This document shows positions 126 to 2,850 of a stretch of DNA of 64,000 nt, piece by piece; within the stretch, counting starts at the first letter, position 1; the number at the start of each line of letters is the position of its first letter. This DNA comes from Cerasicoccus sp. TK19100 (GTDB lineage Bacteria; Verrucomicrobiota; Verrucomicrobiia; Opitutales; Cerasicoccaceae). A program made the position numbers and the translations under genes. Below the pieces are notes generated by a model that saw nothing but the letters and a program-made list of their open reading frames with translations, did not search any database and was not told the origin of the DNA. Location of the stretch: the NCBI RefSeq assembly GCF_027257155.1, contig NZ_JAPWDU010000004.1, positions 434,001 to 498,000 of the forward strand, in the 5' to 3' direction.

Positions 126-887
126 ATGCTAAACATACTGCCCATTCTATTCATCGCGGTTTCCTGCCTTTATTCCATGGCAGGGTTTGGCGGCGGCTCC
201 ACTTACATTGCGCTCTTAGCAATCAGCGGGCTGCCCCTGGCAATCATCCCCATCATATCCCTAACGTGCAATCTCATCGTCACCTCACAGGGAAGCATTT
301 TGCTGATCAAACGCGGGCACGCGCAGTGGTCCATTCTCCTCCCTCTCTTGATTGGCTCTATACCGGCCGCATTCTTGGGCGGCGCTTGGCGGCTCCCGCA
401 AGAGGCATTCCTCGGCATACTAGCCGCAGCATTGACTATTGCCGGCTTGGCAATGCTTGCGCAAAACGTGCTCTACAAACGGAAAACCGAAAAAGTTCAA
501 CAGCCCAAACCAATCATCCTTGCTGGCGCGGGCGTGGCCCTTGGCTTACTTGCTGGCGTTACCGGAATTGGTGGCGGCATTTACCTGGCCCCTGTCATGC
601 ATTTATTAGGCTGGGCGCGGGCGCACACCATCGCCACCTGCACATCGCTGTTCATTGCGTTTAACAGCGTTGCCGGGCTCTTGGGCCAGTTGACCAAAGG
701 CGGGCAATTACTCAGCGAAGCACCACTATGGATTCTGATTGGCTGCCCAATTGCCGTCATCATCGGCGGTCGTCTCGGCAGCTATTTACTAACGAACAAG
801 CTGCCTCAAGCGCGCGTGCGACTCATCACGGCGATCGTCATACTGATGGTGTCGGTGCGGCTTTGGCTGAAACTGTGGGTCGCTTAA
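126..887 (+). CDS. TauE/SafE (TSUP) family membrane permease
   Basis: A 253-residue, strongly hydrophobic protein with about eight membrane segments in two similar halves. The glycine-rich stretches GFGGGST near residue 20 and GVTGIGGGIY near residue 145 are the paired signature of the TauE/SafE sulfite/organosulfonate exporter family. Members move small anions across the inner membrane, but the substrate cannot be read from sequence. A GAGG-like Shine-Dalgarno lies just before the ATG. The last ~100 bases overlap the 3' end of the convergent peroxidase gene, and both frames stay open through the overlap. No metabolic partner gene sits nearby to indicate a substrate. Confidence 0.88.
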   Translation: MLNILPILFIAVSCLYSMAGFGGGSTYIALLAISGLPLAIIPIISLTCNLIVTSQGSILLIKRGHAQWSILLPLLIGSIPAAFLGGAWRLPQEAFLGILAAALTIAGLAMLAQNVLYKRKTEKVQQPKPIILAGAGVALGLLAGVTGIGGGIYLAPVMHLLGWARAHTIATCTSLFIAFNSVAGLLGQLTKGGQLLSEAPLWILIGCPIAVIIGGRLGSYLLTNKLPQARVRLITAIVILMVSVRLWLKLWVA

Positions 888-2609
888 CGTCTTTAAAAAT
901 GCCACCAGCGCAGCCTGGTCCTCCGTGCTCAGGTTCAGCCCACCACGCGGATGCTTAGCCAGATTTGGGTCCAGCGTTTCCGATGACTCAACCCCGCTAC
1001 TGTAGTGTTCGATCACTTCCTCCAGAGTCGCGAAGCGCCCATCATGCATGTACGGCGCAGTTAGCGCCACGTTGCGCAACGAAGGCGTCACGAACTTGCC
1101 CACATCCGCCGACTTACCCGTCACCTTGCCGCGACCAGTGTCCCCCCGCAGCAATGCCAGGCCGTTGTTGTGAAATTGATTGTCGCTGAAAAGCGCCCCA
1201 CCGTGGCAGTGAAAACAATCTGCTCCGAACTGTCGCGAGCGCGGCTCAAACTCGGTCATGAAAAGTTCGAAGCCACGCTTTTCAGTGGTGGTCAGTTCCG
1301 CTTCGCCACGCATCGCCTGATCAAATCGCGAGTCGAACGAGGTCAGGGTTAACAAGAAACTTTCCAAGGCCAACCCAAGGTTCCTCTCGCTGATTTCACC
1401 CTCACCGAATGCTTCCTTGAACGCTATACGATAATATTGATCAGCCTTCAGTTCAGCCAGAAGTGCATCCATATCGGACCCCATCTCAACCGGATCGATG
1501 ATCGGATGCAGCACCTGCTCGCGAAGGCCGGTCACGCGGCCATCCCAGAAAAAATGCTCCTTCCATGCCAGGTTAAAGAGCGGCATTGAATGCCTTGCCG
1601 TTCGCTGACGATCAACCCCCATACTCATGACGCGGCGGTCTGCAAAGGCCTCCTCAGGCTGGTGACAGTTGACGCAAGATATACGGTTGCTACGCGAAAG
1701 GCGGTGATCAAAAAAAAGTCTGCGCCCCAACTCTACGCGCTCGACAATCAGCGGGTTGTCCGGAGGCAGTGCCGGCCGTGGAAACCGCCCACTCAAGCGG
1801 AACGGATATGGCTCAAAATGATCCGGCATGTCAATGGGCGTTACCGATGCCACCATCGCACCTGGGTTGTGTTTAACGATACGCGACACCGAAAAGGCGC
1901 TCAATATATTGGTGGCCAGCTTGGCAGCAACTAAGTCCCCTTCCCGCGAGTGCGTTGATACGCCGTCGGCGGCAAAGGCGATCGGCTCAGGCGCATGAAA
2001 CCAAGACGCCAAATCGAGGCTCAAATGAATCTCGACCGCATCCTCCGCCTGAAAGGTCAACGGCAATGTAACGAGTCGGTAGTTCCAATCATTCGCCAAG
2101 TGATAGACAAAACCGGACAGGGATTCACCCTCACGATAGCGACCTTCAATCGCGGCAAAAATATAACCGCCCTGCCAGCCCCAATGCAGATTGTTCAGCG
2201 CAGGGTTGAGCGGATGGTCCGCCGGCCAAGCACTCGGGTCAGCATGATTACGCGCGCTCTCGACCCCCACCGCAAAGCGCAAGGCCCGATAACGACCATC
2301 AGGAATATTCTCTAGCCAAATGCTTTCCCGGCGGCTGGCCAAATCGACCCAAGCCACGCTGTCAGCGATTTCCACCCATTCACCACTTTCACTTTGCAAT
2401 GCAAAGTTACTCAGCAAGTAGCTAAGCCGGGTAAGCGAAAAGGTTTCCCCTGCCCGCGTTTCGTAGCGAAGTGAATCCAGTTGCAACCGCTGCCCGTCGT
2501 AGTGATGAGCGATGGACACCTTAACGGGATTGGCTGCAATCGCGCAGGAACTAAGGCACAGCCATAGCAGCAAAGTCAGCGATCTGCAACTTGCCCGAGG
2601 TAGAGACAT
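789..2609 (-). CDS. Secreted MbnP-like domain fused to di-heme MauG/MbnH-type cytochrome c peroxidase
   Basis: A 606-residue protein with a signal peptide ending near AIA-A. Residues ~25-250 look like the MbnP copper-protein family: NLHWGWQGGYIFAAIEG and a closing DLASWFHAP segment. Residues ~270-590 are a bacterial di-heme cytochrome c peroxidase with two c-type heme motifs, CVNCH (about 311-315) and CFHCH (about 464-468), plus the family segments NRISC, FWDGR and APYMHDGR. In methanotrophs MbnP and the MauG-like MbnH are separate, adjacent proteins, and MbnH oxidises a Trp of MbnP. Here both occupy one frame. A GTG at 2618 is also in frame, but GGAGG abuts it and lies 9 nt before the ATG at 2609, so the ATG is preferred. 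The gene follows 2626-2850 closely and is probably co-transcribed with it. The 3' end overlaps the TSUP gene. Confidence 0.87.
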   Translation of the reverse strand: MSLPRASCRSLTLLLWLCLSSCAIAANPVKVSIAHHYDGQRLQLDSLRYETRAGETFSLTRLSYLLSNFALQSESGEWVEIADSVAWVDLASRRESIWLENIPDGRYRALRFAVGVESARNHADPSAWPADHPLNPALNNLHWGWQGGYIFAAIEGRYREGESLSGFVYHLANDWNYRLVTLPLTFQAEDAVEIHLSLDLASWFHAPEPIAFAADGVSTHSREGDLVAAKLATNILSAFSVSRIVKHNPGAMVASVTPIDMPDHFEPYPFRLSGRFPRPALPPDNPLIVERVELGRRLFFDHRLSRSNRISCVNCHQPEEAFADRRVMSMGVDRQRTARHSMPLFNLAWKEHFFWDGRVTGLREQVLHPIIDPVEMGSDMDALLAELKADQYYRIAFKEAFGEGEISERNLGLALESFLLTLTSFDSRFDQAMRGEAELTTTEKRGFELFMTEFEPRSRQFGADCFHCHGGALFSDNQFHNNGLALLRGDTGRGKVTGKSADVGKFVTPSLRNVALTAPYMHDGRFATLEEVIEHYSSGVESSETLDPNLAKHPRGGLNLSTEDQAALVAFLKTLSDPQFQPKPHRHHQYDDRRDESHARLRQLVR

Positions 2610-2625
2610 GCGACTCACCCTCCGC

Positions 2626-2850
2626 TTAATTAATCGTCCAGGCCGTTGCCGTGGTCGAGGTGCGATCAGTGATGTTCACGAGCGTGGCGGATTGAATCGG
2701 TGACGGCCGGATCGCTATCGCGTCGCGCGCGGCAATGGTTTCATACACGCGCGCATATTTGGTCGAGTTGTCCGTAATCCAGGTCGTTAGCTGGACATCG
2801 GCGTGGAGCGAGAGTGTGATGGCTGCGGAAAAGAATAGTGCGTATTTCAT
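2626..2850 (-). CDS. Small secreted protein resembling the N-terminus of YHYH-domain proteins, possibly truncated
   Basis: A 74-residue product with a convincing signal peptide (residues 1-17, cleaved near LHA-D) followed by LTTWITDNSTKYARVYET. From memory, this opening resembles secreted YHYH-domain proteins, which often sit beside MbnP and cytochrome c peroxidase genes. The rest of that domain is absent, so this is either a short functional protein or a decayed remnant. It stops about 16 nt before the peroxidase ATG, which suggests one transcript. The signal peptide argues that the reading frame is real; the family assignment is tentative. Confidence 0.5.
   Translation of the reverse strand: MKYALFFSAAITLSLHADVQLTTWITDNSTKYARVYETIAARDAIAIRPSPIQSATLVNITDRTSTTATAWTIN

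Follow-up and report, generated by a model that had tools for sequence, protein, structure and literature searches.

Can one polypeptide hold both MbnP and the di-heme enzyme that acts on it, and could such a protein modify itself? A gene at 789..2609 (minus strand) raises this question. It lies in the window, which is the whole 64,000-nucleotide stretch of Cerasicoccus sp. TK19100 DNA that was analyzed. The copper site of Methylosinus MbnP consists of a His, a Met, and a kynurenine. We take the first Trp of its WxW motif to be the residue that becomes kynurenine. To our knowledge, the action of MbnH on MbnP is one of the few known routes to protein-bound kynurenine and to a kynurenine copper site. 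The di-heme enzyme MauG acts on Trp of a separate protein, and its product is TTQ. MbnP and MbnH are already known as a pair, as described in PMC3621798. An earlier note on this DNA had proposed that the two functions are joined here.

The gene encodes 606 amino acids from an ATG at 2609. An alternative GTG start at 2618 would give 609. The frame is open from the ATG to the stop at 789 without interruption, as the earlier note had claimed, and the four motifs that it named (HWGWQGGYIF, DLASWFHAP, CVNCH, and CFHCH) are all found in the translation. HWxW is a conserved mark of the MbnP domain; DLASWFHAP is not conserved. Residues 1 to 26 (2532..2609; all features of the protein are on the minus strand) form a hydrophobic stretch that by eye is a probable export signal. 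LSSC in the N terminus could be a lipobox. The MbnP domain covers residues 27 to 214 (1968..2531) in Pfam and residues 25 to 244 by structure. It is followed by a linker at residues 245 to 266 (1812..1877) and by a di-heme MbnH/MauG-like domain at residues 267 to 582 (864..1811), placed by profiles and structure match. The first heme site is CVNCH at residues 312 to 316 (1662..1676), and the second is CFHCH at residues 465 to 469 (1203..1217). The GC content of the gene is 0.558, with 0.571 for the whole window, and base composition gives no sign of a foreign origin. A convergent TauE/SafE gene (126-887) overlaps the 3' end of the fusion gene by 99 bases (789-887).

Both domains are recognized by Pfam. 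The MbnP profile PF20243 matches residues 27 to 214 with an E value of 1.2e-40 and 139.8 bits, above the Pfam cut-off of 27. The CCP_MauG profile PF03150 matches residues 290 to 437 with an E value of 1.3e-53 and 182 bits, above the cut-off of 25.6. The top NCBIfam match is the MbnH family TIGR04039, with 244.5 bits against a cut-off of 362.85. The four-Cys MbnP family TIGR04052 reaches 42.3 bits against 140, and the MauG family TIGR03791 reaches 197 bits against 443.85. By the curated NCBI cut-offs, the fusion does not count as a canonical MbnP or as a canonical MbnH. MbnH is also expected to be encoded next to MbnP, and here the two share a chain. Among solved structures, the closest in sequence is MbnH 6e1c (E value, 2.2e-54).

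The fold of each half was predicted with AlphaFold2 from an alignment of 77 fusions. The model has a mean pLDDT of 87.8 and a pTM of 0.85. Foldseek matches to it were re-examined. Model residues 25 to 244 match MbnP of Methylosinus trichosporium (7l6g) with a Z score of 18.2 and an rmsd of 2.9 over 206 residues. Model residues 267 to 582 match MbnH 6e1c with a Z score of 33.6 and an rmsd of 2.0 over 303 residues. This structure outranks all other rows; the best Z score is 29.8 for classical peroxidases and 29.5 for MauG. The profiles and the structures thus agree with the earlier assignment of the N-terminal half to MbnP and of the C-terminal half to the di-heme peroxidases. The MbnP profile and structure matches rule out the alternative that an unrelated domain precedes an ordinary cytochrome c peroxidase.

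The first 41 structure rows contain 24 other peroxidases, 16 MauG entries, and 1 MbnH. In 20 of the 24 other peroxidases, the first aligned model residue lies within 141 to 145 (HWGW), and in the MauG and MbnH rows it lies within 267 to 288. This is an indirect hint that the HWGW loop is packed against the peroxidase domain, at the place of the N-terminal segment of those peroxidases. The pLDDT of this block (model residues 141 to 150) is 77.

We surveyed 387 Verrucomicrobiota genomes for MbnP independently of the HWxW motif, and the unbiased statement of conservation rests on this survey. It retrieved 26 MbnP genes from 22 genomes. They fill 27 rows, as one gene is spread over two rows through a frame change. 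HWxW (HWDP in L041) is in frame with two CxxCH sites in 25 of the 26 genes. One of these 25, L037, has frame changes before and after, and the end of its di-heme domain is missing. No split mbnP/mbnH pair was found among the 26 MbnP genes of the 387 genomes. In L042 (G168), MbnP ends after about 90 profile positions. A YHYH frame lies upstream of it, and a frame that by eye is transposase-like lies downstream.

In a scan that covered 84,980 species, 320 relatives were confirmed, and the best 80 were kept as loci. The scan used the HWxW motif, so this motif is conserved by selection in the 80 loci and likewise in the 77-row alignment. All but one of the 80 are titled Verrucomicrobiota, and the other (L105) is titled just "bacterium." MbnP shares its frame with one or more CxxCH sites in 80/80 of the kept loci and with both in 76. 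The remaining four (L058, L074, L078, and L108) have one CxxCH in frame, and their frames run off the contig. The search for the same fusion in other genomes that the earlier note had proposed therefore finds it throughout the kept loci, and the fusion is no sequencing artefact. Together with the unbroken frame, this rules out a frame error between the domains and makes a stop hidden by a sequencing error, which that note had allowed for, very unlikely. Judged from gene sequences, the MbnP-MbnH fusion is the rule in Verrucomicrobiota. Phyla beyond this one were reached through plasmids only. No plasmid-borne fusion outside the phylum was found among the matches listed (40 of 384 records, and all 10, 8, and 5).

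A tree was built from 55 peroxidase domains. It contains 45 fusions: the window gene, 26 drawn from the 76 complete ones, and 18 others. The 45 make up one side of a branch with support of 100/97, and seven split MbnH-like domains lie on the other. The three outgroup rows are long-branched and do not fall on one side of a branch. As drawn, the tree places a Photobacterium peroxidase on a long branch, rather than the split MbnHs, closest to the fusions. The single clade of fused domains fits one fusion event, which would be the simplest reading of the tree.

The split relatives suggest how such a fusion may have formed. Of the seven split pairs inspected, six have mbnP immediately upstream of the di-heme gene in the same orientation (Deinococcus radiodurans, Methylocystis iwaonis, Trichormus, Paracoccus, Ideonella, and Pseudoalteromonas). 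The two genes overlap in Methylocystis and Pseudoalteromonas. In Deinococcus grandis, two small genes lie between them, and one is labelled copper resistance. The fusion thus joins neighbors in their usual order. Copper genes are close to three of the seven pairs: the labelled gene in D. grandis, CopC and CopD genes one gene further on in D. radiodurans, and genes for a copper uptake protein, PCu(A)C, and SCO after the Paracoccus pair. No copper gene was seen beside the fusion in the window, where there are RND efflux and TauE genes. By analogy with the split relatives, the role of the fusion may be periplasmic copper handling.

The closest known system is the MbnP/MbnH pair (7l6g and 6e1c; TIGR04052 and TIGR04039). 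It shares both folds, the WxW motif, the His, the heme sites, and the gene order with the fusion. It differs in that the fusion is one polypeptide and scores below both NCBI cut-offs. The Deinococcus MbnP-family protein and its di-heme peroxidase have the same two domains. Their MbnP part has no Cys and keeps both Trp residues and the His. Unlike the fusion, they are encoded by separate genes, and the two Deinococcus proteins have Gln or Thr aligned at the position of H220.

The predicted copper site lies in the MbnP half. HWGW occupies residues 142 to 145 (2175..2186), and its W143 and W145 form the WxW motif with its first Trp. W143 (2181-2183) is the predicted kynurenine by alignment, and we take it to be the counterpart of the modified Trp of Methylosinus MbnP. 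H170 (2100..2102) is a predicted copper ligand by alignment. H220 (1950..1952) is the second, by alignment and profile comparison, and it replaces the Met of four-Cys MbnPs. The residue table has 26 fusion rows, which are 25 survey genes (L042 omitted and L037 included) and L003 of the family search. W143, H170, and H220 are kept in 26/26 rows, 25 of which were found regardless of motif. In the survey genes with the region intact, H142, W143, H170, and H220 are kept in 25/25. W145 is lost in one survey gene, L041 (G359), which has HWDP for HWxW and keeps the first Trp.

The same positions were compared with split MbnPs by local-pair MAFFT. The column of W143 has Trp in 7/7, and the column of H170 has His in 7/7. 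In 5/5 four-Cys MbnPs, the residue aligned with H220 is the Met of the CM pair, which is invariant among them. Profile comparison repeats the H220-Met match with a probability of 98.8% and an E value of 1.4e-16. In the default seven-row alignment, the Methylocystis MbnP does not line up with H170 and H220, and the H220-Met match is not reproduced. The ligand assignment follows the local-pair alignment and the profile comparison over this default alignment. At the Met position, every fusion compared has His, with no Cys beside it, and the Cys pattern (Cys and CM-pair Met) of four-Cys MbnPs is absent from the fusions.

With His in place of Met, the copper site of the fusion is predicted to consist of two His and a kynurenine, as in CorA. 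In PMC3912023, the CorA site is described as Kyn62, H64, and H114 with a water. CorA/MopE* also has a di-heme partner gene of the CorB type, and its kynurenine and two-His copper site is the one predicted here. CorA/MopE* and the CorB-type partner are encoded separately, unlike the fusion. According to PMC3621798, MbnP and CorA/MopE have no marked sequence similarity.

On the heme side, both CxxCH sites, W355, E375, and Y536 are invariant in 77/77 fusions. Y536 (1002..1004) is the predicted axial heme Tyr. Its column also has Tyr in MauG and in 7/7 split MbnH-like proteins, and the MauG residue is presumably the axial heme ligand. The spacing from F239 to D284 is 45 to 47 residues in 73 of the 77 fusions, and a PLYLPxxFTPYxF-like stretch recurs in the linker region. 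More variation in length would be expected of a floppy tether. The near-constant linker therefore favors domains that are held in a fixed arrangement.

We favor the reading that the fusion is an exported, self-maturing copper protein in which W143 is modified in cis. We put the probability of this reading at about one half. After export, two c-type hemes would be attached. The MbnH-like half would react with H2O2 to reach a high-valent di-heme state, by analogy with MauG and MbnH. By oxidation, it would then convert W143 of the MbnP half to which it is joined into kynurenine. Kyn143, H170, and H220 would complete a copper site like those of CorA and MopE. The fusion would have arisen, most simply once, from mbnP and mbnH genes that lay side by side, and substrate and enzyme would since have been tied one to one on a near-constant linker. 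Modification within the chain fits the retention of the target Trp and of the MauG-type heme residues. It is favored because the linker is near-constant and because a search of the source genome for the MbnP and MbnH families, as distinct from PF03150 peroxidases in general, gave no further match. More tentatively, and with the odds slightly against it, Verrucomicrobiota as a whole may have self-maturing copper proteins of this kind. Each would be one chain whose enzyme half acts once, and the change from Met to His would have converged on the CorA/MopE ligand set.

The di-heme half of one copy may instead act on the MbnP half of another copy, in a dimer or an encounter complex. The fusion would then secure co-export and equal amounts of the two halves. 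In the split relatives, the reaction is by nature between two proteins. The near-constant linker and the peroxidase rows that start at the HWGW loop hint at a fixed contact within the chain, however, and we regard modification in trans as doubtful.

Another candidate substrate is encoded nearby in many relatives. Of the 80 loci, 53 have 2.5 kb or more of sequence on each side, and 32 of these 53 carry a YHYH gene no more than 2.5 kb from the fusion, usually just upstream and on the same strand. The HMM behind this count was built from the neighbors of these same loci. Pfam names the YHYH domain in the four neighbors scanned (L048, L049, L057, and L103). The matches listed include 13 genomes with both MbnP and YHYH. 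The two are within 5 kb in eight of them (G043, G134, G156, G211, G256, G274, G280, and G335) and not in five (G000, G184, G229, G232, and G241). In the window, the upstream YHYH gene appears as a stub, a 74-amino-acid frame at 2626..2850 (minus strand). Its residues 1 to 44 match the start of a YHYH-type neighbor with an E value of 7e-8 in a database of 810 neighbor proteins. The stub has no Pfam match.

The di-heme half may act on a YHYH protein, on another periplasmic protein, or on H2O2 alone, with the MbnP half as a copper or docking module. The frequent YHYH neighbor speaks for this, and it would seem wasteful for a fused enzyme to act a single time on its own chain. Here, however, the neighboring YHYH gene is a stub, the sole YHYH match in the source genome is on another contig, and the fusion retains every key position. 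We consider another substrate improbable. That the copy in the source genome is decaying, or that the modification is no longer performed, is very improbable: the YHYH stub and the patchy presence of the fusion in the source family (0/9 of the other genomes with a full-length match and 3/9 with a partial one) would agree with decay, but the frame is full and the conserved catalytic and ligand positions are intact.

The earlier note had placed the gene outside any methanobactin locus. Methylocystis MbnB and MbnC queries found no relative in the genome in a search run without a positive control, which is consistent with that placement and weak as evidence.

What is new here is an enzyme-substrate fusion that is phylum-wide by sequence and often near a YHYH gene; the MbnP/MbnH pair itself was known. 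The earlier note, which named no strand, did not include the prevalence of the fusion in Verrucomicrobiota, the change from Met to His at the predicted copper site, or the YHYH neighbor. No report of a fused MbnP-MbnH was found in the literature searched; the primary MbnP/MbnH papers lie outside that search, and a prior mention is possible. The words "fusion" and "fused" are absent from PMC3621798. The literature searched also has no report of kynurenine copper sites in Verrucomicrobiota, and it mentions "YHYH protein" as a Pfam name in a diatom study. If the self-maturing reading is true, the fusion would offer a one-chain system, with substrate at 1:1, in which the oxidation steps could be trapped along with the high-valent di-heme intermediate. 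It would also extend kynurenine copper sites to Verrucomicrobiota, with a testable ligand change predicted.

Two observations concern the neighbors and relatives. A 1,036-amino-acid frame beside the fusion in L049 (4232-7339, minus strand) contains a YHYH domain and a sulfatase domain. Genes in L133 (3847-4998), L134 (3750-4919), and L135 (3752-5023) are labelled "methanobactin export MATE transporter MbnM." Each product contains two heme sites and clusters with MbnH, and the label is probably an annotation error that has spread.
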